From assembly GCA_030695945.1 (NCBI GenBank), contig JAUYOG010000018.1, positions 62,001 through 126,000 of the forward strand: a stretch of 64,000 nucleotides of DNA, in the 5' to 3' direction. How positions within the stretch are numbered: position 1 is the stretch's first letter; every line of letters begins with the position of its first letter. Both the position numbers and the translations under genes were made by a program. The stretch comes from Ramlibacter sp. (GTDB taxonomy: Bacteria > Pseudomonadota > Gammaproteobacteria > Burkholderiales > Burkholderiaceae_C). Below, piece by piece: positions 7,153 to 26,173 of this stretch. The notes beneath the pieces were generated by a model. It worked only from the letters and a program-made list of their open reading frames with translations. It was not told the DNA's origin and ran no database searches.

Positions 7153-7189
7153 CCATTGTGAGCACGGGCGCATGCGCCGCCCTGTAGGA
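7153..7189 (-). promoter_or_regulatory. Stress-type promoter element upstream of CHRD gene
   Basis: On the minus strand TCCTACA (7183-7189) is followed after 21 bases by TCACAATGG (7153-7161), 34 bases before the CHRD start. The first box is part of a perfect 7-base inverted repeat (7182-7201, CTGTAGG and CCTACAG). It is one instance of a shared element found upstream of several small genes in this window. Confidence 0.5.
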
Positions 7190-7202
7190 CGGACCCTACA
7201 GA

Positions 7203-7400
7203 TCAGCGCTTGCGCTCAGGGCTTACCCGCGCGGGCTCGGTCGTCTTGCCCGGCACGGGCGCCGCTTCGTCCAACTCATTGCGGTTGCCCGCCGGCGGCT
7301 CCTGCTTGACCTCTTCGCCCATGGTCGTGTGCATCGGGTCGGCATCGTGGTTTTCGTTGCCGCCGGATGCCGGCCCGCGGCCGATGCTCGTGCTGCCCAT
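7203..7400 (-). CDS. Small hydrophilic protein, unknown function
   Basis: This 65-residue protein starts MGSTSIGRGPASGGNENHDA and ends in a charged tail. There is no signal peptide, membrane segment or hydrophobic core, so it is probably intrinsically disordered. The start at 7400 is supported by AAGGAGCAGCGA directly upstream. A well-formed copy of the TCCTACA/CTAnnnTGG element lies at 7426-7461, so it probably has its own promoter. I do not recognise a family. Its composition resembles the small proteins at 18602-18856 and 18863-19087, which have the same type of upstream element. Confidence 0.65.
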   Translation of the reverse strand: MGSTSIGRGPASGGNENHDADPMHTTMGEEVKQEPPAGNRNELDEAAPVPGKTTEPARVSPERKR

Positions 7401-7425
7401 TCGCTGCTCCTTGGTGGGTATGGCT

Positions 7426-7461
7426 CCACTGTAGGCCACGCGCGGCCGGCGCGGTGTAGGA
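7426..7461 (-). promoter_or_regulatory. Stress-type promoter element upstream of the 65-residue protein
   Basis: On the minus strand TCCTACA (7455-7461), exactly 20 bases, then CTACAGTGG (7426-7434), 25 bases before the start codon at 7400. This is one of the best copies of the shared element. Confidence 0.6.
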
Positions 7462-7518
7462 AATGACAGCGCCTCGACGCGCCGATACACTGGCCGCGCC
7501 CCGACAGGAGAGACCACC

Positions 7519-8424
7519 ATGCCCGAATTCAGCACGCTTCGAATCGACAAGGACGCCTCGAGCCCGCGCGTCGCCCGCCTGCTGCTCAACCGCCCCGAGC
7601 GGCTGAACGCGATCAACGACGCCACGCCGCGCGAGATCCGCGCCGCCGTGGAATGGGCCAATGCCGATGACGAGGTCCACGTCATCGTCGTCGAGGGCGC
7701 CGGCAAGGGTTTCTGCGGCGGCTACGACCTGACGCAGTTCGGCGAGGGCAAGATCGACCACCCCTGCCAGCAGGAGCGCCATCCCTGGGACCCGATGGAA
7801 GACTACGCGTACATGAAGCGCAACACCGAGGACTTCATGACGCTGTGGAAAAGCCCGAAGCCCACCATCGCGAAGGTGCATGGCTTCGCGGCCGCGGGGG
7901 GCAGCGACATCGCGCTGTGCTGCGACCTGCTGGTGATGGCGGAAGACGCGCGCATCGGCTACATGCCCACGCGCGTTTGGGGGTGCCCCACGACGGCGAT
8001 GTGGACCTACCGGCTCGGCCCCACGCGTGCCAAGCAGCTCATGTTCACGGGCGACACCATCGATGGCCGCACCGCGCTGGCCTGGGGCCTTGCCAACGAC
8101 GCGGTCGCGCCCGAGGCGCTGGAAGGCGCGACCATGAGCCTGGCCAACCGCATCGCCGGCGTGCCGCGCAGCCACCTCGCCATGCACAAGATGGTCGTCA
8201 ACCAGGTGATGCTTGCGATGGGCCTGGAGCAGAGCCAGCAGATGGCCACGGTCTTCGACGGCATCACGCGCCACAACCCCGAGGGGCTGTGGTTCCGCCG
8301 CCTGGCGCAGGCAGAGGGCTTCAAGGCCGCCGTTCAGTGGCGCGACAGCGGGCAGCCGATCCCCGAAGGCGACGATGCGCGCGAGCGGATCCGCGAACTC
8401 GAGGCGCGCGGGGGCCCGCGATGA
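7519..8424 (+). CDS. Crotonase-fold protein (enoyl-CoA hydratase family), atypical active site
   Basis: This 301-residue protein has the crotonase fold: [23 protein letters not shown] (oxyanion hole region) and [20 protein letters not shown]. In true enoyl-CoA hydratases two glutamates act. Here the first position is Asp (GGSDIAL) and the second (usually PE) reads MPTRVWG, so both glutamates are absent and plain hydratase activity is doubtful. The start follows GGAGAG. Its last codon overlaps the next gene (ATGA), so it is coupled to the Ldh-type oxidoreductase. The pair may handle a hydroxy- or oxo-acid CoA ester; that is inference. Confidence 0.85.
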
Positions 8425-9479
8425 ACGGTGGCCGCTACGCCGCGCCGGCACTGGTCGAATTCGCCGGCGGGCTGCTCTGCGCGATGGACCTGCCCGTCGA
8501 CAAGGCGGATGCGGTGGCGCAGGTCCTGGTCGAAGGTGACCTGATGGGCCACACCACCCACGGGCTCGCGCTGCTCGGCCCCTACCTGAAGGAGCTCGAC
8601 TCCGGCGCGATGACGCGCGAGGGCGAGCCGGCCGTGCTCGCCGACGCACCGGCGGCCGTCACATGGGATGGGCGGCGCCTGCCCGGGCCGTGGCTCGTGC
8701 TGCGGGCGATGGCGCTTGCCACCGAGCGCGCGGCGAGCTGCGGCACCGGCACGGTCGTCATCCGGCGCAGCCACCACATCGCGTGCCTGGCCGCCTACCT
8801 GAAGCGCGCAACGGACCAGGGCCTGATGATGCTGCTCACTTGCTCGGACCCGAATGCCGCCAGCGTCGCGCCCTTCGGAGGGCTCGACCCCGTGTTCACG
8901 CCAAACCCGATCTCGGCCGGCATCCCGACGCCCGGCGTGCCGGTGCTGGTCGACATCTCGACGTCGGCCACCACCAATGGGCTGACCAACCGGCTGCACA
9001 ACGAAGGCGGCCGGTTGCCGGCCCCATGGGTGATCGACGGACACGGCCAGCCATCGGATGACCCGTCCGTGCTGTTCCGGGAGCCCAAGGGGACCATCCT
9101 GCCGCTCGGCGGCCTGGACTCGGGCCACAAGGGCTACGGGCTGTCGTTGCTGGTGGAGGCGCTGACCGGCGGCCTCGCCGGCCACGGGCGTGCCGACGCG
9201 CGGGAAGGATGGGGCGCCACCGTGTTCCTGCAGGTCATCGACCCGAGGGCGTTCGCGGGCCTGGACGCATTCACGCGCCAGACGGGCGTGGTGACGCAGC
9301 AATGCCATGCGTCGCGGCCGTCAAAGCCCGGATTGAAGGTGCGCACCCCTGGCGAAAAAGGGCTGGCGTTGGCCCAGTCGCAACGCGAAAGCGGCGTTGC
9401 GCTCCACACCTCGATCATGCCGATGCTCGAGCCATGGGCCGTGCGGCTGGGCGTCGCGATGCCGCAGCCGCTCGATTAA
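8421..9479 (+). CDS. Ldh family oxidoreductase (malate/L-lactate dehydrogenase-like)
   Basis: This 352-residue protein belongs to the NAD(P)-dependent Ldh_2 family, which acts on 2-hydroxy acids such as malate, L-lactate, L-sulfolactate or ureidoglycolate. Family marks are [21 protein letters not shown] near the N terminus, [13 protein letters not shown], and the cofactor region [13 protein letters not shown]. Later comes [16 protein letters not shown]. Length is normal. The ATG at 8421 overlaps the crotonase stop. The substrate is open. The nearby TTT carboxylate transporter on the other strand is a tempting partner but has no direct link in the sequence. Confidence 0.88.
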
Positions 9480-9516
9480 CCGCGGGATCGCGAGGCGAGC
9501 AAGCGCGGTGTGCGGG

Positions 9517-9790
9517 CGGCGGGCCGGGGACGGCGGGTGGCCGACTCCGCGAATGTCCCCCGTCGCGGGCTGCGCCCGCTACCTCCTCCTTGATTTCGCT
9601 GCGTCGGCCACCCGCCATCCCCGGCCCTTGGCGCAACGTTCGTTCTTTCGACGCGTCGAACGCCTACCGCGGTGGATGGATCAGGGCGGCGGGGCGCTCT
9701 ACGCAGCGGAATAAAGGAGGAGCCGCCCTCCCGGCGGCGGGGGACATCCGCGGAGTGGAGTGCCCCGTCGCCCTGATCCCGCCCCCACCG
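9517..9790. repeat. Composite inverted repeat, copy 2
   Basis: This second copy of the element at 1121-1392 lies in the same direction on the plus strand. The two copies agree nearly throughout, except for a variable stretch between the two modules (about 9627-9672 here). It occupies almost the whole 326-base gap between the Ldh-type gene and the TctA gene. Inside it the left module (about 9523-9624) and right module (about 9679-9778) are inverted relative to each other. No gene is visible in it. Confidence 0.85.
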
Positions 9791-9806
9791 AGCCGTGCCC
9801 TGGAAC

Positions 9807-11312
9807 TCAGCCCGCGGCCAGCCGCTTCGCCCGCAGCCTGCGCAACCCGCGCAGTGCCAGCGGCGCGAACCACACCAGCAGCGTGATCACGGCCAGGCCC
9901 AGCGCGATCGGCCGCTGGAAGAACGCCATGAGGCTGCCATTGGACTTGATCATCGAGGTGATGAAGTTCTCCTCCAGCATGCCGCCCAGCACCACGCCGA
10001 GGATCGCTGGCGCAATGGGGAAGCGGTTGGCCTCGAGCAGGTACGCGATCACGCCCGCCACCAGCATCACGCCGATCTCGAAGGTGGAGTTGTTGATGGC
10101 GAAAGTGCCGACGACGCAGAACACCAGGATCACGGGCATGAGCACTTCGCGTGGCACGCGAAGGATGCGCTTGGCGACCTTGATGCACAGGATGCCCAGC
10201 GGGATCATGATGATATTGGCGATGATGAACAGCAGGAATACGGCGTAGATGTTCTGCGGATTGGTGGTGAACAGCGTCGGCCCCGGGTTCATGTTCTTCA
10301 TGTAGAGCACGCCGATCACGATGGCGGTGATCGAATCGCCCGGGATGCCGAACACCAGCGCCGGGATCCACGCGCCGGCCAGCGCGCTGTTGTTGGCGGC
10401 GCCGGACTCGACGATGCCCTCGACGTGGCCGGTGCCGAATTTCTCCGGCTCCTTCGAGAACTTCTTGCTCATCGCGTACGACATCCAGGCGGCGATGTCG
10501 GCGCCGGCGCCCGGCAACGCGCCTACCGCCGTGCCCAGCGCGCTGCCACGCAGGATCTGCACCGGGTACTTCTTCGCCAGCGCCCATTGGCCCGCCATGA
10601 CGTTGCCCACCTTTTCCACGACGAGTTCGCCGGGCGGGGTGGTGTCCACGACGAAGCGGATGATCTCCGAGATCGCGAACATGCCGATCATCATCGCGAT
10701 CATGCCGATGCCGCCCGTCATCTCCGCGTTGCCGAACGTGAAACGCGGGAACCCCGCGGGGTTGCCCAGCCCGACACACGCGACGAGCAGCCCCAGCAGC
10801 AGCGTGACGACGCCCTTGAGCGGCTGGTTGGTGGTGATGAACACGGCGCATGTCAGGCCCAGCAGCACGAGCCAGAAGTACTCGAACGAACTGAAATTGA
10901 GCGCGAAGTTGGCGAGCGTCGGCGCGGCCACGATGAGCACCGCGGTGCCGAACAGTCCACCCACCGCCGAAAACACCAGCCCCGCGCCCAGTGCGGTTTC
11001 GGCCTCGCCCTTGCGCGTCATCGCGAAGGCCTCGTCCGTGTAGGCCGCCGAGGCCGGCGTGCCGGGGATGCGCAGCAGGCAGCCGGGGATGTCACCCGAG
11101 AAGATCGCCATCGCGGTGGCCGTCACCATCGCGGCGATCGCGGGGATCGGCGGCATGAAGAAGGTCACCGGCACCAGCAGCGCCGTCGCCATGGTCGCCG
11201 TGAGGCCCGGCACGGCGCCGACGAACAAGCCGTACAGCGCCGCGATGACCATCACCATGAGGGTGTACGGCTCGAACACCATCGCAAAGGCCTGGCCCAC
11301 CGCGGTCAGCAT
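9807..11312 (-). CDS. tctA: TTT transporter large permease subunit (TctA family)
   Basis: This 501-residue integral membrane protein has TctA/DUF112 motifs: YGLFVGAVPGLTATMATALLVP near the N terminus and SALGTAVGALPGAGADIAAWMSY in the middle. The second glycine-rich repeat reflects the internal duplication of the family. About ten to twelve membrane segments are apparent. With TctB and the periplasmic receptor it takes up a carboxylate by a secondary, ion-driven mechanism. It is the last gene of the tctC-tctB-tctA operon, and about 15 bases separate it from tctB. Length is normal for the family. Confidence 0.95.
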   Translation of the reverse strand: MLTAVGQAFAMVFEPYTLMVMVIAALYGLFVGAVPGLTATMATALLVPVTFFMPPIPAIAAMVTATAMAIFSGDIPGCLLRIPGTPASAAYTDEAFAMTRKGEAETALGAGLVFSAVGGLFGTAVLIVAAPTLANFALNFSSFEYFWLVLLGLTCAVFITTNQPLKGVVTLLLGLLVACVGLGNPAGFPRFTFGNAEMTGGIGMIAMMIGMFAISEIIRFVVDTTPPGELVVEKVGNVMAGQWALAKKYPVQILRGSALGTAVGALPGAGADIAAWMSYAMSKKFSKEPEKFGTGHVEGIVESGAANNSALAGAWIPALVFGIPGDSITAIVIGVLYMKNMNPGPTLFTTNPQNIYAVFLLFIIANIIMIPLGILCIKVAKRILRVPREVLMPVILVFCVVGTFAINNSTFEIGVMLVAGVIAYLLEANRFPIAPAILGVVLGGMLEENFITSMIKSNGSLMAFFQRPIALGLAVITLLVWFAPLALRGLRRLRAKRLAAG

Positions 11313-11327
11313 GGCGTCGATTCCCCG

Positions 11328-11801
11328 TTACCAGGCATAAGGCGTCAGCAAGCCCCAGGGCAGCGGCACGCGCAGCAGCTTGTAGAAAGCGAAATGGATG
11401 ACGAGCGTCGCGACCACGGCCAGCAGCAAAGCGCGTGCCGGCGGGACGCGCAGCACGGAGAACATCGACATCAGGATGATCGCCGCCGTCGGCAGGAAGC
11501 CGAGCCAGCCCGCCACGGCGATGTAGAAGACGACGGAGCCCAGCAGCACCGCCAGCGCCAGCACGTGGCGCGGCGAGCGCACCCAGTCGTCCCACACGAC
11601 CCACGGTGCCCGCGCGCGCTCACGGATGCCGCGCAGGACGAGCAGCACGCCGCAGACGCACAGGCCCGCCGCGATCAGGCCGGGGAACAGCGCGGGACCG
11701 ACGGATTGACCCGGGATCTTCGGGAAGCCCTGCACCCCGATGAGGACAGCGCCTCCCAGGGCTGCCAGCACCAGCCCGAAAACCGCGTCGTTGACTTTCA
11801 T
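11328..11801 (-). CDS. tctB: TTT transporter small membrane subunit (TctB family)
   Basis: This 157-residue protein has four hydrophobic segments (about residues 5-25, 38-58, 77-100 and 115-150), the usual TctB layout. The N terminus MKVNDAVFGLVLAALGGAVL is typical. It forms the membrane part of the transporter together with TctA. It sits between the receptor gene (ends nine bases upstream) and the permease gene, all on the minus strand, so the three are one transcript. Confidence 0.92.
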   Translation of the reverse strand: MKVNDAVFGLVLAALGGAVLIGVQGFPKIPGQSVGPALFPGLIAAGLCVCGVLLVLRGIRERARAPWVVWDDWVRSPRHVLALAVLLGSVVFYIAVAGWLGFLPTAAIILMSMFSVLRVPPARALLLAVVATLVIHFAFYKLLRVPLPWGLLTPYAW

Positions 11802-11810
11802 CCGCCGGGC

Positions 11811-12794
11811 TTATTTCGCCAGGCCCACGGCCTTCATCGTCGCGCCCAGGTCCGTGTCGGCCTTGGCCATGAACTTGCCGAACTCGTCCGGGCCGGCGTA
11901 GATGACGCCGAAGCCGCGGCTGGCCATGAAGTCCGTGTATTCCTTGCTGGTGGCCGCCTTGCGCACGGCGGCGGCGAGCTTGTCGCGCACATCGGCGGGA
12001 ATGCCCTTGGGCGCGACGATGCCGCGCCACGCGGCCATGGTCCAGTCGCTGCCGATCGCCGACTTCAGCGTGGGCACGTTGGGGTACAGCGCCGACGGTT
12101 TCGTATCCATGATGGCGAGGCTCTTCACCTTGCCCGCGTCGATCAGCGAGCGTGCTTCGGGCAGCGACACCGGCGCCACCTCGACGCCGCCGGCCACCAT
12201 GTCCTGCAGGCCCGGCGCGGCGCCGTTGCTGGGCACCCACGGCAACGCGGCCGGGTCGATCTTCTGGTCGCGCAGCAGCCCCGCGATCGCCAGGTGCCAG
12301 ATGCCGCCCTGGCCCGTCCCCGACGCCTTGAACTTGCCGGGGTTCGCCTTGATGGCGGCGAGCAACTCGTTGACTGTCTTGTAAGGTGCATCGGCGCGCA
12401 CCTGCACGCCGGCCGGGTCGGCATTGACGAGGCCGATCGGCGTGTACGAGGCGCCCGTCAGGTCCGTGAGGCCCTGCCAGTGCATCATGGCGATCTCCAC
12501 CGTCGCGAGGCCGATGGTGTAGCCGTCCGGCGGCGCCGACGCGATCGCGGAATGCCCCACCACGCCGTTGCCCCCCGTGCGGTTGACCACGTTGACGGGC
12601 TGTCCCAGGTCTTTCTCCATCAGGCTGCCGAGGATGCGTGCCGTGGCGTCGGTGCCCCCGCCCGCGCCCCACGGCACGATGAGCGTGATCGGTCGGGCCG
12701 GGTAGTTCTGCGCCGCGGCGGGCAGCGCCACGGCGGACAACGCGACGGCGGCCATCGCGGCAGCCATCAATGAACGACGGGAAGGGATCGACAT
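11811..12794 (-). CDS. tctC: TTT transporter periplasmic receptor (TctC/Bug family)
   Basis: This 327-residue protein has an N-terminal signal peptide with paired arginines (SRRSLMAAAMAAVALSAVAL, cleavage near AAAQN). It then shows the Bug signature YPARPITLIVPWGAGGGTDA. Bug receptors bind carboxylates in the periplasm; the Asp-containing loops that hold the ligand carboxylate are present, but the ligand cannot be named. It is first in the operon, and GGAGA lies before its ATG. A perfect 7+1+7 palindrome of GntR type at 12828-12842 lies 33 bases upstream, so the operon is probably controlled by a GntR regulator encoded elsewhere. Confidence 0.95.
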   Translation of the reverse strand: MSIPSRRSLMAAAMAAVALSAVALPAAAQNYPARPITLIVPWGAGGGTDATARILGSLMEKDLGQPVNVVNRTGGNGVVGHSAIASAPPDGYTIGLATVEIAMMHWQGLTDLTGASYTPIGLVNADPAGVQVRADAPYKTVNELLAAIKANPGKFKASGTGQGGIWHLAIAGLLRDQKIDPAALPWVPSNGAAPGLQDMVAGGVEVAPVSLPEARSLIDAGKVKSLAIMDTKPSALYPNVPTLKSAIGSDWTMAAWRGIVAPKGIPADVRDKLAAAVRKAATSKEYTDFMASRGFGVIYAGPDEFGKFMAKADTDLGATMKAVGLAK

Positions 12795-12827
12795 GGAAGG
12801 TCTCCTTGCTGCAGGGGTCAGAGGTCA

Positions 12828-12842
12828 AGTTGTCGGACAACT
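12828..12842 (-). promoter_or_regulatory. GntR-type operator of the tct operon
   Basis: AGTTGTC-G-GACAACT is a perfect inverted repeat with 7-base arms around one central base. It lies between the tctC start (12794) and a -10-like TATAGA on the minus strand (about 12852-12857). TTGTCnGACAA-like palindromes are known operators of FadR-subfamily GntR regulators. No regulator gene is adjacent. Confidence 0.65.
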
Positions 12843-12948
12843 CCAGCAAATCTATAGGACTCGAAGGGGCCCGCCATTAGGGTGAACCATAGATGAGGCT
12901 CTGCCCGCGCGCCGATGGCGGCTGTCCTACAACCCAAACGCCGCCGTC

Positions 12949-12984
12949 CGACAAATCCGCCAGGGCCCCCTCGGTAGAGTGAAT
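12949..12984 (+). promoter_or_regulatory. Stress-type promoter element upstream of the Gln-rich protein
   Basis: TCCGACA (12949-12955), exactly 20 bases, then GTAGAGTGA (12976-12984), 61 bases before the start at 13046. A second box TCCTACA lies just upstream at 12927-12933, in the same direction. Confidence 0.55.
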
Positions 12985-13045
12985 TCGTGGCCTGCTCCGG
13001 CGTGGCCGCGTGCAGTAGTGGCAGTCAACTTCAAAGGAGAGACAG

Positions 13046-13345
13046 ATGGCTCAAGGTAGCAACCAGCAGAACCAGGGCAACCAGGGTTCCGGCCAGCAGA
13101 GCGACCGCGGCAGCAGCCAGCAACAGGACCGTGGGCAGGCCGGCCAAGGCCAGCAGGACCGCAGCAAGCAGGAGCGCGGCCAGCAGGACCAGGGCCAGGG
13201 CGACCAGGCCAGCCGCGACAAGATGCGCGAGCAGGGTGGCCAGGCCAGCCCGGGCTCGGGCAGCAAGCAATCGGGCATGGACGACATGGATGAAGACATG
13301 CCCGGCAACCCGTCGCAAAGCGGGGGCAAGGGGAGCAAGAGCTGA
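13046..13345 (+). CDS. Gln/Gly-rich disordered small protein
   Basis: This 99-residue protein is almost entirely Gln, Gly, Ser, Asp and Arg (for example QQNQGNQGSGQQSDRG), with no hydrophobic core, signal or membrane segment. It must be intrinsically disordered, in the style of desiccation or stress hydrophilins, although I cannot place it in a named family. The ATG follows AAAGGAGAGACAG. A promoter-like element lies upstream and a strong terminator follows at 13369-13392, so it forms a complete single-gene unit. The repetitive composition might suggest a spurious frame, but the binding site, start, promoter and terminator argue that it is real. Confidence 0.8.
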   Translation: MAQGSNQQNQGNQGSGQQSDRGSSQQQDRGQAGQGQQDRSKQERGQQDQGQGDQASRDKMREQGGQASPGSGSKQSGMDDMDEDMPGNPSQSGGKGSKS

Positions 13346-13368
13346 GCGCGCGATCCTCAACCCATGAG

Positions 13369-13392
13369 GCGGGGCTTTGTCCCCGCTTTTTT
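13369..13392 (+). terminator. Rho-independent terminator after the Gln-rich protein
   Basis: GCGGGG, a six-base loop, CCCCGC, then six T. The stem is perfect and lies 24 bases after the stop codon of the Gln-rich gene. Confidence 0.88.
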
Positions 13393-13424
13393 CATGCCGC
13401 GCCGCGCCGCTGCACAATCGCCCG

Positions 13425-13982
13425 ATGCCCGCCTCCTCACTCCTGAATGCGAGCCCCGCGGACGTGCTGGGGTTCTGGCGCGACGCCGGTCCCTCGCGCT
13501 GGTTTCGCAAGGACAGCGCTTTCGACGAGCAGTTCCGAGATCGCTTCCTCACCGCGCACGAAGCCGCGCTGCGCGGCGAACTCGACGCCTGGGCGGGCGA
13601 TGCGCAAGGGGCGCTGGCGTTGCTGATATTGCTGGACCAGTTCCCGCGCAACGCATTCCGCGCCACCGCGCGCATGTTCGAAAGCGACGCCAAGGCCCTC
13701 GAGATCGCACGGCAGGCCGTGCGCGGCGGACTCGATGCACAAGTGGAAGCCGGCCTGCGCAACTTCTTCTACCTGCCGTTCACGCACTCGGAACAGCTGG
13801 CCGACCAGGACCTCGGCGTGGACCTCGCACGCGCGCTGGGCGACGAGCCCCTGCGTTACGCCATCATGCACAGGGACATCATCGAAAGGTTCGGGCGCTT
13901 CCCGCACCGTAACGCCGTGCTGGGGAGAGCGACTACGCCCGAGGAACAGCGCTTCCTGGACGACGGCGGGTTCGCGGGCTGA
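13425..13982 (+). CDS. DUF924 family protein
   Basis: This 185-residue protein matches DUF924: DVLGFWRDAGPSRWFRKDSA at the start, LLDQFPRNAFRATARMF in the middle and FYLPFTHSEQLADQDLGVDL toward the end. The fold is helical and TPR-like; the biochemical role is unknown. The ATG at 13425 begins the family's usual N terminus; a TTG at 13377 would lie inside the preceding terminator. The gene converges on the response regulator gene with only 18 bases between stops. Confidence 0.9.
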   Translation: MPASSLLNASPADVLGFWRDAGPSRWFRKDSAFDEQFRDRFLTAHEAALRGELDAWAGDAQGALALLILLDQFPRNAFRATARMFESDAKALEIARQAVRGGLDAQVEAGLRNFFYLPFTHSEQLADQDLGVDLARALGDEPLRYAIMHRDIIERFGRFPHRNAVLGRATTPEEQRFLDDGGFAG

Positions 13983-14000
13983 CGCCGCGAGCCACTTCCC

Positions 14001-18475: not shown

Positions 18476-18521
18476 GCCCCGCCATCATCGCGCAAGCCGT
18501 GCGCCGGCGCAGAAGGCGCCG

Positions 18522-18559
18522 TCCTACAGCGCGGCAACCCCGGGACGAGCATAGTGAGC
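18522..18559 (+). promoter_or_regulatory. Stress-type promoter element upstream of the 84-residue protein
   Basis: TCCTACA (18522-18528), then 22 bases, then ATAGTGAGC (18551-18559), 42 bases before the start at 18602. The first box is perfect; the second is a weaker match to the shared element. Confidence 0.5.
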
Positions 18560-18601: not shown

Positions 18602-18856
18602 ATGCCCATCCGATTCAGCACCGAGGCCGCCAATGCCGACCACATGCGCAGGGAAGCCGAAACGGGCGCGCCCGAGGGCATGCCCGACGCCGTCGGCGCC
18701 GACGGCACGCCGCGCGACCGCGCCGACCCCAGCCTGCAGCGCGAGCCCAAAGGCGGCGCGGCCCCCACCGACCGGGACAGGGACACGGCTGCCAAGCCCG
18801 GAAAGGACATCAACGCACCGGGATTCGTCAAGGACAAGGACGCGGGCGAGCCTTAG
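18602..18856 (+). CDS. Small hydrophilic protein, unknown function
   Basis: This 84-residue protein begins MPIRFSTEAANADHMRREAE. It is very rich in Asp, Arg, Pro, Gly and Lys and has no hydrophobic segment, so it is probably disordered. GAGGACC lies before the ATG. It shares the upstream TCCTACA element with other small genes in this region. It converges on the small gene at 18863-19087, with six bases between stops. I do not recognise a family. Confidence 0.65.
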   Translation: MPIRFSTEAANADHMRREAETGAPEGMPDAVGADGTPRDRADPSLQREPKGGAAPTDRDRDTAAKPGKDINAPGFVKDKDAGEP

Positions 18857-18862
18857 GCTCGG

Positions 18863-19087
18863 TCATTTCCCGCGCTTGAGCCGCACGCGGCTGAATGCTT
18901 CGGCCCCGCCGCCTCCGCCGCCGTCCGCGAAATCGTGCGGATCCAACGGGTCGCGATCGGGCCGCTGGGGCGACTCGATCAGCTCGCTGGCGCTGTTTTC
19001 GCCGATATCGCTGGTCGCAGGCACGGAGGACGTCGGCCGGTCGCCGGTCTTGGCGCGCGTCGGGCTGGTGCTGCTTCGGGATGTCAT
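18863..19087 (-). CDS. Small hydrophilic Ser/Asp-rich protein, unknown function
   Basis: This 74-residue protein begins MTSRSSTSPTRAKTGDRPTS, has a run of six Gly near residue 57 and ends in a basic tail. There is no signal or membrane segment. The start at 19087 is supported by GGAG eight bases upstream and by a good copy of the shared promoter element at 19111-19146. Longer frames on this strand reach far upstream but cross that promoter, so the short form is preferred. Confidence 0.6.
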   Translation of the reverse strand: MTSRSSTSPTRAKTGDRPTSSVPATSDIGENSASELIESPQRPDRDPLDPHDFADGGGGGGAEAFSRVRLKRGK

Positions 19088-19110
19088 GGCAAGGCTCCGG
19101 ATGATCGGCT

Positions 19111-19146
19111 CAAGGATAGGCAAAGCCCGCTTGCGCGGGTGTCGGA
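19111..19146 (-). promoter_or_regulatory. Stress-type promoter element upstream of the 74-residue protein
   Basis: On the minus strand TCCGACA (19140-19146), exactly 20 bases, then CTATCCTTG (19111-19119), 23 bases before the start at 19087. Confidence 0.5.
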
Positions 19147-19189
19147 CGGGGCCGCGAGAACCGATGGGCTCCTGCGCGCTCCATTCCAC

Positions 19190-19669
19190 ATGATCCGTCT
19201 CGTCATCGCCGCCTTGGTGCCGACCATCGCCATGGCGGTCGCGTGGGCGCAGGGGCCCGATCCCCTGAAATCGGTGGAATGCAAAGTCGCCCTCGATGCG
19301 CTCGAGGGCGTGGTGGCCGAAAAGACGCAAGGCCCCGTGCGGGCGCAGCGTGTGGGGACCGCACGCCGGCACGCCGCGGACGCTTGCCTGGGCCGCAGCG
19401 ACGACAACCGGGTGCGCTCGGGTGCGCCCCAACCGGCCCAGGCCGTGCGCCCACCTGTCACCACGGCCACTCCCTCGGCGCCGTCGCTGCCGTCCGCCTC
19501 GCCGCCGCCGCCACCACCACTGGCCATCCCGCGCCCTACGGTCATCACCACCTGCGATCCCGCCGGCTGCTGGGACAGCGAAGGCCGGAGGCTCAACAAC
19601 ATGGGGCCGCTGCTGATGGGCCCGCGCGGCCCGTGCACCGTGCAGGGCGGCGTGGCCACCTGCCCATGA
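19190..19669 (+). CDS. Secreted Pro-rich protein, unknown function
   Basis: This 159-residue protein opens with a signal peptide (MIRLVIAALVPTIAMAVAWA, cleavage near AWAQG). A short helical segment with one Cys (VECKVALDALEGVVAE) and a long Pro/Ala/Thr-rich linker (about residues 85-112) follow. The C-terminal domain holds three cysteines, TTCDPAGCWDSEG and GPCTVQGG, which probably form disulfides. I do not recognise the family. The ATG at 19190 is chosen because the signal peptide begins there; no strong binding site is visible. Confidence 0.7.
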   Translation: MIRLVIAALVPTIAMAVAWAQGPDPLKSVECKVALDALEGVVAEKTQGPVRAQRVGTARRHAADACLGRSDDNRVRSGAPQPAQAVRPPVTTATPSAPSLPSASPPPPPPLAIPRPTVITTCDPAGCWDSEGRRLNNMGPLLMGPRGPCTVQGGVATCP

Positions 19670-19786
19670 CGAGGCTCCAGCACAACCGGTAACGGGTGGA
19701 CACAGCACGGACATGCACCCGACACGTGACGGTCGCCCAATGAACAGCATGCGGGCCGGTGCGCCCGCGCCAAGAAAGGACACTGC

Positions 19787-20134
19787 ATGAACAAGCTCCT
19801 ATGGCCCCTGGCGGGCGCCGGGCTGCTCGCGCTGACGGGCTGCGTCGGCTACGGCGGCGGAACCTACGGCGCCGGCGGCGTCTATTACGACAACTCGCCG
19901 TACTACGGCGGCTCCTACTACGGAACGCCCTACGGCTCTCCGTCCTACGGCTACGGTGCCGTGGTGATCGAGCAACGTCCCACGTACGGCTACGGCGGAA
20001 CGACCTATTACCGTCACCGGGGCAGGCGAGACCTCGACCGCGACGGCGTGGCGAACCGTTACGACCGCGACCGCGACGGCGACGGCGTTTCCAATCGCCG
20101 CGACGCGTACCCGAGTGACCCGCGCCGCCGCTGA
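19787..20134 (+). CDS. Gly/Tyr-rich lipoprotein with calcium-binding-type repeats
   Basis: This 115-residue protein has a lipobox (LLALTGC), so it is probably lipid-anchored. Residues 23-80 are rich in Gly and Tyr (YYDNSPYYGGSYYG). The C terminus carries thrombospondin type 3-like Asp repeats (DLDRDGVANRYDRDRDGDGV), which in other proteins bind calcium. AAGGACACTGC precedes the ATG, and a strong terminator follows at 20145-20167, so it is a single-gene unit. Specific function unknown. Confidence 0.8.
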   Translation: MNKLLWPLAGAGLLALTGCVGYGGGTYGAGGVYYDNSPYYGGSYYGTPYGSPSYGYGAVVIEQRPTYGYGGTTYYRHRGRRDLDRDGVANRYDRDRDGDGVSNRRDAYPSDPRRR

Positions 20135-20144
20135 CCCTGCATCG

Positions 20145-20167
20145 AGGCCCCATCCGGGGCCTTTTTT
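20145..20167 (+). terminator. Rho-independent terminator after the Gly/Tyr-rich lipoprotein
   Basis: AGGCCCC, a four-base loop, GGGGCCT, then five T. Perfect seven-base stem, eleven bases after the stop codon. Confidence 0.88.
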
Positions 20168-20235
20168 CTGCGCTTGACCGGCCCCGTCGCCGCTGGCACA
20201 CTCCACCCCTTTCCAACCCACCACAGGAGACAGTC

Positions 20236-20300
20236 ATGGATAGATTCGCCCTTGCCCTCCTGTCGGCCGCCTGAGCCCCTTCGCGCTCACCTTCCTGTAA
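20236..20300 (+). pseudogene. Tiny frame with good start signals, possibly frameshifted
   Basis: An AGGAGACAGTC binding site precedes an ATG at 20236 that encodes only 12 residues (MDRFALALLSAA) before TGA at 20272-20274. One added base near 20270 would extend it to a hydrophobic peptide ending at TAA 20298-20300. It may be a decayed membrane peptide, a leader peptide for the GTPase gene that begins at 20429, or chance. The rest of the 294-base gap to that gene shows nothing else clear. Confidence 0.3.
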
Positions 20301-20428
20301 TCCAGGTCCGTTGATTCGCCCGCGTCCCACGCGGCCGGCCCCCTTATTCGCTTTTCGTGCCGTGCGCGCCCTGCGTGCACGGCTGTGCCCGCGCACGCGC
20401 GGACGAAGACCTGGAACACCCGAAGATC

Positions 20429-21499
20429 ATGATCGACATCCATTTCGAGAAGCTGCGTCCCATCGGCTTGACGCAGTACATCGCCAATCAGCTCTACACA
20501 TTGAAGGAGGAACCCGCCGCGGACGCGCGGCTGATGCGCATCGTCGATGCGCAGCGGGACTGGTACGGCCTGTGGGGCGGCCAGGACGAATCGCGCGCGC
20601 GGGCATTGCCGCGGCTGTTGCACATCGCGCAGGCGGAAGACTCGGCGCTCACGGTGGGCGATTGGGTGCTGGTTGAAACGCACGAGAACGACGAACATTG
20701 GATCGTCGCGCGGCTGCCCCCCGTCACCCAGATCGCGCGCCGCGCCAACGACGGCCGGCGCCAGCCGCTGGCCAGCAACGTCGACACCGCCTTGCTGGTG
20801 ATGGGCCTGGACAGCGACTTCAACCCGCGCCGCATGGAGCGCTACATCGCCATGGTGCAGGCGAGCGGTGTCGCGCCTGTCGTCGTTCTCACCAAGGCCG
20901 ACATCGGCACGGACGTGGCGGAGCGGGAACTGCAGTTGCGGCACCGCCTGCCGCCCACCGTCCCTGTCGTCGCGCTGAATGCGCTGAGCGAAGATGCGGT
21001 CGCGGCTTTGGGGCCCTGGCTCACCGAGGGACAGACACTGGTATTGCTGGGATCCTCGGGCGCCGGCAAGTCCACGCTGACCAACACACTGATGCGCGAG
21101 CCGCAGCAACTGACGGGCGGCGTGCGCAAGGGCGACGGCCGCGGGCGGCACACCACCACCTCACGCTCGCTCCACCAGTGTCCCGGCGGGGCCTGCATCA
21201 TCGACACGCCCGGGCTGAGGACCTGGCGAGCCGACGCCGATCAGGAAGCGCTGGCCGCGACTTTCGATGACATCGAGGCCTTCGCGGCGCGATGCCAGTT
21301 CCGCGATTGCCGCCACGAGGGCGAGCCCGGGTGCGCCGTGCGCGCGCACGTCGAGCCGGACCGCCTGCTCAACTATCACAAATTGTTGCGAGATGCCCGG
21401 CGCGGGCAGCAGAGCCCGCTGGAGCGCATTGCCCAGCGCCAGAAATGGAAACGTCTGGGCAAGGCGGGGAGCCTGCGCCTGCGGGAGAAGCGCGGTTGA
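20429..21499 (+). CDS. rsgA: RsgA-type ribosome small subunit-dependent GTPase
   Basis: This 356-residue protein shows the circularly permuted GTPase order of RsgA/YjeQ: an N-terminal OB-like region, then TKAD (G4), then the P-loop GSSGAGKSTLTN (G1), a Thr-rich switch region and DTPG (G3). It ends with a zinc finger (CQFRDCRHEGEPGCAV). RsgA helps mature the 30S subunit. The sequence resembles the second RsgA-like paralogue often found in proteobacteria rather than the copy next to orn; that distinction is from memory. The ATG at 20429 is used; longer frames add a Cys/Arg-rich leader that is not family-like. DUF2059 follows 18 bases downstream. Confidence 0.88.
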   Translation: MIDIHFEKLRPIGLTQYIANQLYTLKEEPAADARLMRIVDAQRDWYGLWGGQDESRARALPRLLHIAQAEDSALTVGDWVLVETHENDEHWIVARLPPVTQIARRANDGRRQPLASNVDTALLVMGLDSDFNPRRMERYIAMVQASGVAPVVVLTKADIGTDVAERELQLRHRLPPTVPVVALNALSEDAVAALGPWLTEGQTLVLLGSSGAGKSTLTNTLMREPQQLTGGVRKGDGRGRHTTTSRSLHQCPGGACIIDTPGLRTWRADADQEALAATFDDIEAFAARCQFRDCRHEGEPGCAVRAHVEPDRLLNYHKLLRDARRGQQSPLERIAQRQKWKRLGKAGSLRLREKRG

Positions 21500-21517
21500 C
21501 AGCCGTTAAGATGGCCC

Positions 21518-22108
21518 ATGTTCAAGAAATCCATCCTCATCATTGCCCTCGCCCTGGCCGGCGCGACCGGCGTCCAGGCCCAATCCACACCCGCGAAGAA
21601 GGAACTCGTGGGCCGCATCCTGAAGCTGCAGCAACCGAGCATCGAAGCCATGGCGCGCTCCCTCGTGGAGCAGCCCGCCCTGGAATTGCTCAGCAACGCG
21701 GCCGGTGCGATGCCCAATCGGGTCGCCAAGGACAAGCAGGAAGCGGTCGCCAAGGAAATCCAGGGCGACGTGGAGAAGTACCTCGCGGACACCGTGCCGC
21801 TGGTCCAGGCTCGGGCGGTGAAGCTCGGGCCCACGAGCATCGGCACGCTGCTGGAAGAGAAATTCACCGAGGACGAACTCAAGCAAGTGGTCACGCTGCT
21901 CGAGTCGCCGGTGTTCGCCAAATTCCAGCGCATGGGCGACGACATGCAGAAGGTGCTGGTCGACAAGGTGGTCGCCGACACGCGCGCCACCGTCGAGCCC
22001 AAGGTCCGCTCGCTGGAACAGGCGGTGGCGAAGCGCCTGGGAGTGACTTCGGCACCGCCGGCGGCAGGCGCCGCGCCGCGCGCGCCCGCCAAGCCGGCGA
22101 GCAAATAG
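21518..22108 (+). CDS. Exported DUF2059 protein
   Basis: This 196-residue protein has a signal peptide (MFKKSILIIALALAGATG, cleavage near VQAQS) and a mainly helical mature part. The DUF2059 pattern is FTEDELKQVVTLLESPVFAKF. The last 25 residues are Ala/Pro-rich. Location should be periplasmic; function is unknown. It lies 18 bases after rsgA and may be co-transcribed with it. Confidence 0.85.
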   Translation: MFKKSILIIALALAGATGVQAQSTPAKKELVGRILKLQQPSIEAMARSLVEQPALELLSNAAGAMPNRVAKDKQEAVAKEIQGDVEKYLADTVPLVQARAVKLGPTSIGTLLEEKFTEDELKQVVTLLESPVFAKFQRMGDDMQKVLVDKVVADTRATVEPKVRSLEQAVAKRLGVTSAPPAAGAAPRAPAKPASK

Positions 22109-22119
22109 GCAAGGCGCCG

Positions 22120-22299
22120 TCAGCGCGCTTGCCGCAGGAAGCGCCGCACGTTGTCGGGGTCGGGACCCACGCTCTCGACCGCGTGGCGCAATTCCTGTTC
22201 GCTGCAATGGAGCCAACGGGTCCAGTTGCGGCGCTCCCACTCGTGTTCCAGGCTGACGACTTCGCCGTCACTGCCTTGCCTGCCATGGTCTTCGGACAT
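22120..22299 (-). CDS. DUF3606-like small protein
   Basis: This 59-residue protein fits the DUF3606 pattern: EVVSLEHEWERRNWTRWLHC, then EQELRHAVESVGPDPDNVRRFL. The second of two adjacent ATGs (22299) is chosen because AAGGAGG lies just before the first one, which would be too close. A TCCTACA box lies upstream on the minus strand at 22399-22405, about 100 bases from the start, without a good -10 partner. It converges on the DUF2059 gene. Function unknown. Confidence 0.65.
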   Translation of the reverse strand: MSEDHGRQGSDGEVVSLEHEWERRNWTRWLHCSEQELRHAVESVGPDPDNVRRFLRQAR

Positions 22300-22410
22300 C
22301 ATGCCTCCTTGAGAGTCATGACGCAACGGTAGCCCCGGCGCCATCAGGCACGCGCCGGAGAAGAGGTCTCGTGGCCGTGCGAAAACGGGGATGGCGGCTG
22401 TAGGACGGGG

Positions 22411-24549
22411 TCAGTTCGCGCTGGCCAGGCCCACGCGGTTGCCGAATTCGTAGCAGGCCGCCTCGAAGCTGCGGATCTCGAACAGGGCTTCCCGCAGGCT
22501 CATCTCGCCCGCGTCCATCAGCTTGCCCGCCAGGTGTTCGGTCAAGGGCTTCAGGCGCGCCAGCACCGCCTTGGTTTCGCCATAGAGCTTCTCGCTCTGC
22601 GCTTCCATGATGCCGCGCGTTTCCTCGTCGAGGTTGCGGCTCGCGCCATGGCCGTCGTTGGACAGCGCGCCGAAATTCAGGCGCGTCTTGCGATACATGC
22701 CCATTTCGGCCACCGCGTGGTGCAGCAGCTTGGTCACGCGAGTGATGTCGTTATGCGCGCCGTTGGTGGTGCCCTGCTCGCCGAAGAACAGCTCCTCGTT
22801 GGCCATCCCGCCCAGCAACACGCGCACGTCGTGCTCGATGTCGCCCTTTGTCTTGAGCAGGTTCGCGCCCTGCTTGTGGAACACGAAGCCCAGCGCGTTG
22901 TTGCGCGGGTTGGCCTTGAGCGAGATCTTGATCGTCTTCATCTCGGAGAGGATCTTCTCCCAGTCGCCGCCGGCCTCCTTGCGCTCCCGCTCGAAGTCCA
23001 CGAGGAAGTGGCCCCACTCGTGGATGGCGATGATGCGCCGGTCCCTCTCCCGCTCCTTCGTGGTGTTCGAATTGACGTTGCCGACCAGGACGCGCTCTGC
23101 CGCCTGCATCAGCGTCTCGGCGCCGATCATGTCGCCGTTCTGCACGGCGCTGATGCCGGCCTGGTTGACGATGGTCTCCAGGTCGGCGGGGCTGCGGCCC
23201 TCCGTGACTTCCACCAGGTGGCGCAGGTCCATGTCCGGCAGCACCTTGTCGGCGCGCTGGTCGAGGTAATGGCCGATGATGGCCAGGCGCTCTTCCTTGT
23301 TGGGCATGCGGAAATCCACCTTCATCTGGAACCGGCGCAGCATCGCCTCGTCCATCTGCATGGATTCGCTGTTGAAGTTGGACGCGACGATCCAGATGAT
23401 CTCGGCTTCGCTCTTGGTGCGCACGCCGTCGAGGATGGCCAGCAGCGAGTTCTGCGTGTCGTCATCGAACTTGCGGTGCCCGCCGCGCTTCATGAACAGG
23501 TCCTGCGCTTCGTCCAGGAAGACGATGCAGCGCCGGCGCCGCTTGGCCATGGAAGCGATCCGGCCCAGCGTGTTGGAGCCGCCGGCCACGTAGCCGGTCT
23601 CCAGGTTCGCGGCCGAGTGGAACAGGATGGGCAGGTTCAGCTCCTTGGCCAGGTAACTGGCCAGCTTTGTCTTGCCGGTACCTGCCGGGCCGCTGAACAT
23701 CACGTTGAACGGCTTGCTGATCCCGTACTCGGCGTATTCCGCGCGGCGCTGGTACTGGTCCTTGATCTGCGCCACTTCGGACTTGATGTCGTCCATGCCG
23801 ACCAGGTCGTCGATCGAGCCGTGGATTTGCGCCGGCTCCAGGAACTTGAGCGACTTGAACTGGCCCTTGAGCTGGAAAAACAGGAAGCCCAGCAGGCCCA
23901 GCGTCAGCGTGGCCGACAGCACGCCGCTCACTCCCGCTTTCCAGCCATCCTTCTCGGACTGCGGCCGCGCGCCGGCGAAGCGGTTGTCCAGCCGCTCGAG
24001 CATCTCGACGCTGGACTTGTCCAGGTCCGCCCGCGGCACGAAGGCCAGCTTGCCGCCCCAGGGCGCCGCCACGGCCTTGTCCGCGAAAATCTTGGTTTCC
24101 ATGTCGCTGGGGTAATAGGCGTACTGCTTGCCCTGCGACTCGATCAGGACGATGCGTTCGGAGACGTTCCACATCAGCGGCTTGTAGATCACGGTGATCT
24201 GGTCCACCTTGTTGCCGTCGAGGAAGCTCAGCACCGAGCCGGTGCCGAACACAACCGGCAGCTTCGGGTTGAAGCTCCATGTCACCGCACCGGCGGGTTC
24301 GGCGGCGCTCATCGACTTCACTTGCTCGGCCACGGCCGCCTGCCTCTGCATCAGCAGGGCGGAATAGATGGCGCTGGCGGGGATGAGCAACGCCATCGCG
24401 ATGACCATGACCTTGACAGCGGTGGACTGGATGACGAACCAGTCCTGCAGCCGGGCGGCCGCCTTCTTCAGCGACTGCGTGGGGCCGCTGGGCGGCGCCC
24501 CCTCCGCGGCCTGGGCGGTGGGTTGCGAACTCGGCGAGAGATCGGACAT
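22411..24549 (-). CDS. Divergent FtsH-like membrane AAA+ protease
   Basis: This 712-residue protein has two membrane segments (about residues 46-67 and 208-228) flanking a periplasmic region. An AAA+ module follows with Walker A GPAGTGKT (near 286) and Walker B CIVFLDEAQD, then a zinc-protease domain with HEWGH. The third zinc ligand region (NGAHNDITRVTKL) is conserved. It differs from canonical FtsH: Walker B lacks the usual FIDEID, the second region of homology reads DEAMLRRFQ rather than DPALLRPGRFD, and the substrate pore motif is not obvious. A housekeeping FtsH is therefore expected elsewhere. It stands alone, with a gap of about 550 bases upstream. Confidence 0.88.
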   Translation of the reverse strand: MSDLSPSSQPTAQAAEGAPPSGPTQSLKKAAARLQDWFVIQSTAVKVMVIAMALLIPASAIYSALLMQRQAAVAEQVKSMSAAEPAGAVTWSFNPKLPVVFGTGSVLSFLDGNKVDQITVIYKPLMWNVSERIVLIESQGKQYAYYPSDMETKIFADKAVAAPWGGKLAFVPRADLDKSSVEMLERLDNRFAGARPQSEKDGWKAGVSGVLSATLTLGLLGFLFFQLKGQFKSLKFLEPAQIHGSIDDLVGMDDIKSEVAQIKDQYQRRAEYAEYGISKPFNVMFSGPAGTGKTKLASYLAKELNLPILFHSAANLETGYVAGGSNTLGRIASMAKRRRRCIVFLDEAQDLFMKRGGHRKFDDDTQNSLLAILDGVRTKSEAEIIWIVASNFNSESMQMDEAMLRRFQMKVDFRMPNKEERLAIIGHYLDQRADKVLPDMDLRHLVEVTEGRSPADLETIVNQAGISAVQNGDMIGAETLMQAAERVLVGNVNSNTTKERERDRRIIAIHEWGHFLVDFERERKEAGGDWEKILSEMKTIKISLKANPRNNALGFVFHKQGANLLKTKGDIEHDVRVLLGGMANEELFFGEQGTTNGAHNDITRVTKLLHHAVAEMGMYRKTRLNFGALSNDGHGASRNLDEETRGIMEAQSEKLYGETKAVLARLKPLTEHLAGKLMDAGEMSLREALFEIRSFEAACYEFGNRVGLASAN

Positions 24550-25102
24550 GCTGCTCTTTCGTGACGGGAGCGCCCGGCCATGTCCGGTACGGGACGAGCC
24601 TTCGAGCGCTGCTCAAACTGGAATTTTCGAAATCGGGAAGCTCGTCCGGCGGGGTGCCGCGGCTTAGGTGTTGTTGCTCTTACCGCTCACATGGAATCTC
24701 ACGCCGGGCTTGAACCTCTTGTCAGTGCAATCCTACAGAGACATCGCTGCCCAAGCTAGTGGCAGGGCTATCCAGATGCCGGCGATGTCACCCCGCGTGA
24801 CAAATTCACGAGTTTTTCGCGGCCACGTGAAGGCGATGCGCCGAAGCAGGGGCGTCCTGCGGAATGGCTGGGCTGACGGGGAGTACCCCTGGGACGGACA
24901 TCGTGCGGCAACGACTGTGTGAACTGCAACCGGATGTGTTCGTAGGACAACTGCCATTTATCGATCTGCCAGCGGAACCCTCGCGGCCAGCGCCGCTCCA
25001 ACACCGTGGCCGGGTTTTCTTCAAGTTTCTTCCCCCGGCCCTTCAATCCCTCGGGCCGAAATCCGGGGGATTTTTTCTGGACGAGACGATCCGCGGCGGC
25101 GG
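24550..25102. other. Gap of about 550 bases with an orphan promoter-like box and a weak terminator
   Basis: No convincing gene is visible. On the plus strand TCCTACA (24731-24737) is followed after 18 bases by CTAGTGG (24756-24762), a member of the shared element with shorter spacing. Further along, hairpins CGGCCC/GGGCCG (25036-25058) and AAATCC-GGG-GGATTT with a T run (25059-25076) look terminator-like. A plus-strand transcript of about 300 bases (a small RNA or an unrecognised short gene) is possible. Short open frames in both directions here show no family-like sequence. Confidence 0.4.
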
Positions 25103-25462
25103 TTACTGAAGGCTGAGCCAGTTAATGGCGTCGCGCTCTGCGCCGAAGAGTGCGATATCGGGGCAGTGCCCGATGCTCGGCGGGGCACGCTCGTCGTCGA
25201 CCAGCTCGGGCGTGGCCACCAGTACCACCTTGATCTTCGGCGCCAGCGCCCGGCGCAGCCGGTCGCAGATCAGGAATTTGCCTTCCGCCCCTGGCGGCGT
25301 GTCCACGCGGCGCAGGTCGATCAAAACGTGATCCTGCCGCAGGCGGGCCGCCGCTGCCTTGACCATATAGGCGAGTTTCAGGGCATCGCCGTTGCGCCAG
25401 CGCCCTTCGACTTCGAAGCGCATCAGGACACCGTCGAGACGGGAAGCAACTACAAGATTCAT
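25103..25462 (-). CDS. STAS-like small protein
   Basis: This 119-residue protein has an alternating strand-helix pattern like STAS/SpoIIAA-type domains: LMRFEVEGRWRNGDALKLAY, then DHVLIDLRRVDTPP and KIKVVLVATPEL. The end FGAERDAINWLSL is also typical of STAS-like proteins. An ATG at 25462 is chosen because the earlier part of the frame is Arg/Pro-rich noise. The binding site is weak. Function unknown; partner-switching regulation is one possibility by fold only. Confidence 0.5.
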   Translation of the reverse strand: MNLVVASRLDGVLMRFEVEGRWRNGDALKLAYMVKAAAARLRQDHVLIDLRRVDTPPGAEGKFLICDRLRRALAPKIKVVLVATPELVDDERAPPSIGHCPDIALFGAERDAINWLSLQ

Positions 25463-25654
25463 CAGCTCTGCCACAGGTTGGGGTACCGGGCGAGAGTGCC
25501 ACAGCCAGTTGTACCCGGGCGGATACAAGCGCATCAGTAGTAGCCAACAGTGACTGCCGTGCCTCCGGCGGATCGCGCCCGGCCTCCCCAGCGAAGACCG
25601 CGGCGGCTGGCTCAACCGACGGAGGGGAAACCGGCCGGTGCGGGCCAGATCACG

Positions 25655-25996
25655 TCAGCGCCGGGGCCACCACTGGCGAACATCACCCGAATCATTGGCG
25701 ACCAGGACGTAGTCCCCGCCCAGCTGGACCCAGTGGTAGCCCCGCGGGGGAGCGGTCAGCCCGTGGCGGCGCCAGTCATCCACCGCGTAATTGTTGCCGC
25801 GGTATTGAGGGGACAGCCGGTCCCGGTGGCCGCGCAGCAAATAGCCTTGTTCGCGCAGTATCTGCCGCTGCTGCCGGTTGACCTGGCGCCGGGCCTCTTC
25901 CTGCGCCACCGGGTCGCCGTCGCCCTGGGCGAAGGCCGGCCCGCCAAGGCCCAGAAGCGCGGCCATCAGGGCCGAAAAGAATGCGTGGTGTTTCAT
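25655..25996 (-). CDS. RcnB family periplasmic protein
   Basis: This 113-residue protein has a signal peptide (MKHHAFFSALMAALLGLGG, cleavage near AFAQG), a charged Gln/Arg-rich linker, and the RcnB-type end (LTAPPRGYHWVQLGGDYVLV). RcnB in E. coli is a periplasmic protein linked to nickel/cobalt homeostasis; many homologues have no known metal role. The ATG at 25996 follows GGAG at seven bases. A TCCTACA box lies upstream at 26064-26070 on the same strand, with only a weak -10 partner. Confidence 0.85.
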   Translation of the reverse strand: MKHHAFFSALMAALLGLGGPAFAQGDGDPVAQEEARRQVNRQQRQILREQGYLLRGHRDRLSPQYRGNNYAVDDWRRHGLTAPPRGYHWVQLGGDYVLVANDSGDVRQWWPRR

Positions 25997-26137
25997 GTTG
26001 AGCTCCATTGGATTGGCCGAGTTGCCCCGGCCATCACGTAACGGGCCGGGCCTGCTTCTCAAGTGTAGGACGTGGCCGCGACTCGCGGGGCCCAGCGCTG
26101 GCGACGGTCGCAATGGAGTCGAACGGGTGCGCGGTTT

Positions 26138-26173
26138 TCCTACAAGAACCCCGACATCGCGGTTCTAGACTGG
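26138..26173 (+). promoter_or_regulatory. Stress-type promoter element upstream of the DUF2231 gene
   Basis: TCCTACA (26138-26144), exactly 20 bases, then CTAGACTGG (26165-26173), 24 bases before the start at 26198. One of the best copies of the shared element. Confidence 0.6.

Follow-up and report, generated by a model that had tools for sequence, protein, structure and literature searches.

A TCCTACA promoter element in Ramlibacter and a candidate GacA/UvrY-like regulator of a putative stress regulon

Elements in the window

We analysed a 64-kb stretch of Ramlibacter sp. DNA (the window; contig JAUYOG010000018.1, 67.9% G+C), which comes from a 3.75-Mb genome (G000) that is 79% complete. Several genes of the window carry the heptamer TCCTACA (the box) in their upstream regions, commonly followed about 21 bp downstream by a TAnnnT-like hexamer. 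On the sequence evidence, the box is probably the target of a GacA/UvrY-like response regulator, encoded at a locus with a CHASE3 histidine kinase, that would directly activate a general stress regulon from just upstream of an ordinary −10 hexamer.

Genes of the window were called with a simple caller made for this analysis. TCCTACA occurs eight times, all within 7–26.2 kb, and all eight copies are intergenic (intergenic fraction 0.143, P ~2e-7). Seven stand 35–125 bp upstream of the start of a gene on their own strand, where a fraction of 0.027 would be expected (P ~1e-10); one lacks such a gene. The observation of the first-pass annotation is partly confirmed. As the window was selected for the pattern, the genome-wide test given below carries more weight than these P values. 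The elements are as follows.

7183–7200 (−): perfect inverted repeat TGTAGG-N6-CCTACA (0 mismatches) in the promoter of the CHRD gene (6664–7119, −); contains TCCTACA at 7183–7189
7155–7160 (−): putative −10 CACAAT of the CHRD gene, N22
7455–7461 (−): TCCTACA half-site of the 65-residue gene (7203–7400); left half unrecognisable
7428–7433 (−): putative −10 TACAGT of the 65-residue gene, N21
12925–12931 (+): distal TCCTACA of the Gln-rich gene (13046–13345); tandem, 22 bp from the next copy
12947–12953 (+): TCCGACA, proximal copy of the Gln-rich gene
12975–12980 (+): putative −10 TAGAGT of the Gln-rich gene, N21
18511–18528 (+): imperfect inverted repeat (2 mismatches) of the 84-residue gene (18602–18856); TCCTACA at 18522–18528
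18550–18555 (+): putative −10 CATAGT of the 84-residue gene, N21
19140–19146 (−): TCCGACA of the 74-residue gene (18863–19087), a weaker member
19113–19118 (−): putative −10 TATCCT of the 74-residue gene, N21
22399–22405 (−): TCCTACA of the DUF3606 gene (22120–22299), no −10 at the usual place
24720–24737 (+): imperfect inverted repeat (2 mismatches), no called gene downstream and no −10; TCCTACA from 24731
26064–26070 (−): TCCTACA of the RcnB-domain gene (25655–26008)
26036–26041 (−): putative −10 TTACGT of the RcnB-domain gene, N22
26138–26144 (+): TCCTACA of the DUF2231 gene (26198–26689)
26166–26171 (+): putative −10 TAGACT of the DUF2231 gene, N21

The first box is present at every position quoted in the first-pass annotation, with one slip of 2 bases (the TCCGACA of the Gln-rich gene starts at 12947, not 12949). 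The second box was described there as CTAnnnTGG. A hexamer at this place does occur above chance, but the longer form was overstated: TCC(N)ACA-N20-CTAnnnTGG is exact only at 7426–7461 and 26138–26173 in the window, and four times in the genome. A looser TAnnnT-like hexamer is common to the other window copies; for those at 22405 and 24731, no −10-like hexamer was seen at the usual spacing. TCCGACA is weaker evidence, with four of its seven window copies located within genes. It was rejected as an equal variant of TCCTACA, since 99 of 114 copies lie within genes in the 80 regulator loci described below.

Around 300 nt past the gene-less box at 24720–24737, there is one terminator-like hairpin with a T run (25032–25076). 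A small RNA downstream of this box is possible; an Rfam scan of the 64-kb window gave no match.

Genome-wide sites and target genes

Scanning of the source genome with TCCTACA-N20..22-TAnnnT gave 19 matches, compared to 5 for the reversed control; 14 of the 19 have the N21 spacing. For all 19, the nearest downstream gene shares the strand of the match and starts 39–238 bp away (the 31-codon open reading frame that overlaps the L013 box was taken as spurious). The word CGTCCTACA has 25 copies in the genome, whereas its reversed word has 118. A same-strand gene lies within 238 bp downstream of 21 of the 25; the exceptions are L025 (529 bp), L026 and L040 (both followed by a gene on the opposite strand) and L027 (within a gene). 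These copies were fetched without a −10 condition. TAnnnT follows them at N20 (2), N21 (3) and N22 (1), and at none of the other spacings from 10 to 33 in any of the 25.

We scanned 36 regulon proteins against Pfam, the SH3 gene and three regulator-locus proteins being outside this count; 21 were matched and 15 were not. The matches comprise catalase (katE), Ku, LigD, a Na/H antiporter, MlaE, a PAS hybrid kinase, PBP1a (two), DUF3606 (two), a glycosyltransferase, KaiC, cyclopropane synthase, KGG, alcohol dehydrogenase, a receiver-only protein, OsmC, CHRD, RcnB, DUF2231 and glycosyl hydrolase 8, the last being the 529-bp case (L025). The earlier suggestion that the genes may form an undescribed stress regulon is supported. 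That its genes are all small fails genome-wide, as its members include catalase, LigD, Ku, PBP1a and KaiC-like proteins. A literature search, which covered subscription journals thinly and worked from listings and the starts of abstracts, found no description of the box or the regulon.

The sites recur in relatives. Seven relatives were hand-picked from the genome list, and all 40 sites fetched from them are intergenic; 37 have a same-strand gene 40–375 bp downstream, and 35 have the N21 spacing. Pfam matched 27 of the 37 target proteins and left 10 unmatched. The targets include Usp (two), catalase, Ku, LigD, DUF3606, MscS, PBP1a, antiporters (two), glycine-zipper and OmpA proteins, and one Crp-type regulator. 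Within the genus, the pattern is present in 58 of 59 genomes, own included, with a mean of 13.0 matches compared to 6.0 for the control; 49 of the 59 are above control.

The inverted repeat and the candidate regulator locus

A set of 149 non-redundant TCCTACA sites was examined for TGTAGGA on the opposite strand, allowing at most 1 mismatch. This word peaks at offset −11, with 14 sites compared to at most 3 at any other offset. TCCTACA is therefore the right half of one 18-bp inverted repeat, TGTAGG-N6-CCTACA. The left half in the 25 own CGTCCTACA copies has 3.56 mismatches on average, whereas the 39 other upstream offsets have a mean of 4.55 and a minimum of 4.04. Another position of the left half, offset +14, was rejected, as this offset overlaps the fixed box; its means are 3.33 compared to 3.60 at the dyad offset in the own genome, and 3.02 compared to 2.92 in the relatives.

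In the class II position, an activator site overlaps the −35 and is centred near −41.5/−42.5. Placing the first T of TAnnnT at −12 puts the half-site at about −40 to −34 and the centre of the repeat near −42.5, which is the class II position. Of the features of this layout, the N21 spacing is found at 14 of the 19 own and 35 of the 40 relative sites, a TAnnnT at N20–22 follows 6 of the 25 copies fetched without a −10 condition, and the complete repeat is present at some sites only. Second copies of the box were observed at offsets 22 and 25 in the 149-site set, and such paired boxes suggest tandem binding. A second box or repeat 21–25 bp away, about two helical turns, is seen at L001, L006, L009, window 12925–12953 and L252:5422–5464.

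The candidate regulator is composed of a receiver domain (Response_reg, PF00072) and a LuxR/GerE helix-turn-helix (HTH; GerE, PF00196), and its canonical copy in the source genome is at G000:C6:157677–158306. Relatives of the regulator were found by name; there are at least 569, of which the best 80 were retained, and they come from Ramlibacter, Caenimonas, Variovorax, Polaromonas, Pseudorhodoferax and others. In 29 regulator loci (L083–L111; 28 of class A, as defined below, and one of class B) inspected by eye, one divergent kinase-like gene is present in 27 and one receiver-only gene in 24. Pfam scanning of L083 alone identified the kinase as CHASE3 + HisKA_3 + HATPase_c and the receiver-only protein as Response_reg. 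The HTH word KTVSTYR is shared by 50 of the 51 loci examined (no row was obtained for L110), although the search word itself required KT[VI]S.Y.

The repeat recurs at these loci. With at most 1 mismatch, it is present in 15 of the 29 loci, while 59 permuted halves gave a mean of 0.1 and a maximum of 2. It was also found in 26 of the 80 loci found by name (permuted mean 0.6, maximum 7) and, for class B, in 13 of 20 additional loci (permuted mean 0.14, maximum 3), which were fetched from 20 of the 34 class B genomes. The repeat precedes the receiver-only gene by 70–224 bp in 11 of the first 15 loci and in 10 of the 13 class B loci (21/28). In the own locus (L252; G000:C6:153500–161500), repeat copies are located at 5422 and 5447, each with 1 mismatch. 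TCCTACA stands 73–74 bp before the regulator gene itself in 5 of the 80 loci (L135, L145, L147, L148 and L150), and also in L096. Several places from a whole-genome repeat scan fall within regulator loci. L252 also holds BON-domain and DUF1328 genes, and a 2-mismatch repeat precedes the DUF1328 gene at 2652.

The mechanism that we infer from the observed box, spacing, orientation, targets, repeat-locus linkage and co-occurrence remains conditional in its binding, phosphorylation, activation, stress signal, feedback and sigma factor. The element would be an activator-dependent promoter, in which TCCTACA is the promoter-proximal half of the repeat and TAnnnT an ordinary sigma-70-type −10. The activator is most likely the GacA/UvrY-like NarL-family regulator encoded between the divergent CHASE3 histidine kinase and the convergent receiver-only protein, with its own copy at the C6 position given above and one paralogue beside the rpoS-like gene at C46. 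Once phosphorylated, it would bind the box, substitute for −35 recognition (class II activation) and recruit ordinary polymerase with sigma-70, possibly sigma-S where present. Catalase, Ku/LigD, OsmC, cyclopropane synthase, DUF3606, KGG, PBP1a and the antiporter, and UspA in relatives, would be switched on. The receiver-only partner of the regulator would also be activated, and may serve as a feedback element on the kinase.

The candidate resembles the GacA/UvrY regulators of the BarA/UvrY and GacS/GacA systems in being of the NarL type, and UvrY/SirA/GacA (NF007018) is the NCBIfam model that fits best. The C46 paralogue, the response regulator beside the own rpoS-like gene, scores 177.9 bits with this model, which is below the equivalog cut-off of 280 bits. 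Regulators of this family activate rsm/csr small RNAs, and Rfam matched nothing in the window. In PMC3171408, the GacA/UvrY box is given as TGTAAG-N6-CTTACA; the box here, TGTAGG/CCTACA, has the same 6-6-6 inverted-repeat geometry with one base changed per half. Different from the GacA/UvrY systems, the partner here is a CHASE3-HisKA_3 kinase, and stress genes themselves seem to be the direct targets, the box standing immediately before the −10.

Another point of comparison is mycobacterial DevR/DosR, whose site overlaps the −35, sometimes with a second site about 22 bp upstream, and which governs a stress/dormancy regulon. The likeness lies in a NarL-family regulator, a site predicted to overlap the −35, a second site about 22 bp away at some promoters and a stress-type regulon, but sequence and phylum are other, and the DevR structure is just a distant match (92 bits). 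RpoS, SigB and EcfG-PhyR are general stress sigma systems. Their targets overlap with those here (catalase, Ku/LigD, OsmC and cyclopropane synthase); here, however, specificity seems to come from the activator site, and the element is present in genomes without an RpoS match. A GacA-type regulator with its own box appears to run a general stress response directly.

Co-occurrence with the regulator and alternative explanations

The class A regulator was defined by an E value of at most 1e-92, and is present in 29 of 120 genomes of the family. Genomes with it have on average 9.3 sites when RpoS is present (n=7) and 5.4 when it is not (n=22). For class B genomes, the means are 1.6 with and 0.3 without RpoS, and for genomes without the regulator 0.08 and 0.98, respectively. 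Overall, site number shows no dependence on RpoS (2.4, n=44 with, compared to 2.2, n=76 without; p = 0.91). Site number tracks the regulator, not RpoS.

The difference persists in a relatedness-matched set of 48 genomes, whose EngA is at least 80% identical to the own EngA; such matching controls distance from the own genome rather than the full tree. Genomes with the class A regulator have a mean of 5.9 sites (n=26), compared to 0.9 for those without it (n=22, p = 2e-7), and mean EngA identity is 83.1 and 83.0, respectively. The set kept the partial EngA matches of G003 and G055 and omitted those of G008, G041, G043 and G045; when the four were added, the mean without the regulator became 0.8 (n=26, p = 3e-8). 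G109 (no EngA match) and G079 (79%) fall outside the set.

Several observations weigh against the assignment of the box to this regulator. Class A genomes without RpoS have 5.4 sites compared to 5.9 for the reversed control; the control is about 5–6 in all classes, so the excess holds between genomes, not against the control. The left half is weak wherever a strict −10 is present. It has 4.00 mismatches at the 19 own sites, where other offsets have a mean of 4.51 and a minimum of 3.84, so it is not the best; at the 40 sites of relatives it is the lowest, at 4.05, yet close to the others (mean 4.52, minimum 4.20). Only 1 of the 19 and 1 of the 40 have a left half with at most 1 mismatch, and such promoters seem to use one half-site. 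The 14 near-complete repeats all belong to a group of 81 sites for which no −10 was required, and 56 of these 81 come from the loci found by name; what the repeat shows and what the locus shows therefore overlap as evidence. In the 149-site set, the −10 profile derives partly from sites selected for a −10, the compared loci are related and their counts not independent, and whole-genome repeat counts (at most 1 mismatch) are not clearly higher in regulator-bearing genomes. Most of the complete repeats have no clear −10 beside them, which may reflect a trade-off between the strength of the operator and that of the core promoter.

Further points against the assignment come from individual genomes. 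Seven of the 59 congeners (G154, G142, G147, G145, G125, G166 and G150) have at most 3 matches, yet all carry the regulator; G154 has none, with a regulator 99% identical. Contraction of the regulon or a changed box is possible in these genomes. Conversely, three congeners (G138, G155 and G158; 75–85% complete) have sites without a regulator match, as has G112 (76% complete; 16 sites compared to 6 for the control, with AT-rich matches). Comparison of regulator loss with site loss within the genus is precluded, as all 44 near-complete congeners have a regulator match and the seven low-site congeners keep the regulator. Conservation of the regulator is unusually strong: where the match is full-length, it is 94–100% identical in most congeners, whereas the EngA proteins of G000 and G097 share 87% identity.

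That an alternative sigma factor, RpoS-like or otherwise, reads TCCTACA as a −35, as the first-pass annotation proposed, is now very unlikely in our view. The targets do resemble an RpoS regulon, the C preceding TAnnnT resembles RpoS −10 elements, the dyad is weak at strict −10 promoters, and the own rpoS-like gene (L048 = G000:C46:1–20000; 10502–11407, −) has TCCTACA 59 bp before its start. However, the distance from the box to the −10 is 21 bp instead of 15–19 bp, and the same half-site forms an inverted repeat at response-regulator loci. RpoS, the sole sigma factor compared, is not predictive of the sites: the 22 RpoS-negative genomes with the regulator average 5.4 sites, and 0–3 sites were counted in the 8 close relatives that have RpoS but lack the class A regulator. 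The rpoS box was rejected as a conserved feature as well, since it is present in the own genome only and absent from the 6 remaining RpoS-bearing class A genomes (28 of 30 rpoS loci were read; L073 and L079 gave no motif). In L048 (9843–12792), the rpoS-like gene lies between the GacA-like paralogue and one PAS-type histidine kinase, in a cluster that by eye includes several CBS-domain-like proteins.

Another regulator of the NarL/LuxR type may bind the box, the CHASE3 locus being merely one of its targets; we consider this unlikely, if less so than a sigma factor. The repeat before the receiver-only gene would be equally expected, a first look at the own genome gave 72 stretches that are candidates for such regulators, and the low-site congeners indicate that presence of the regulator is insufficient for many sites. 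On the other hand, the linkage between repeat and locus holds in both classes A and B, the HTH word is shared by nearly all loci examined, and the resemblance to the GacA box fits the family of the CHASE3-locus regulator. The regulator of the CHASE3 locus is also compatible with a refinement, in which the activator works mainly with sigma-S in RpoS-bearing strains and with sigma-70 in the others. Site number is highest in class A genomes that also have RpoS, and rpoS itself carries the box in the own genome, but these genomes are few and 2 of the 7 belong to the genus of the window; the refinement is thus doubtful, though it has a real chance.

Soil and fresh water are the habitats of Ramlibacter, Variovorax, Polaromonas and their relatives. 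Tentatively, at somewhat less than even chances, the CHASE3 kinase, the GacA-like regulator and the receiver-only protein may be the master general stress response of Comamonadaceae, doing the job of sigma-S, SigB or EcfG-PhyR; the system would work without RpoS and would control rpoS in at least one RpoS-keeping strain. RpoS gave no match in 22 of the 29 class A genomes of the family, and how these bacteria control general stress is undescribed in the literature that we found. A candidate regulator, a predicted binding site and a target list are now testable, and many small uncharacterised stress genes are grouped in one regulon.

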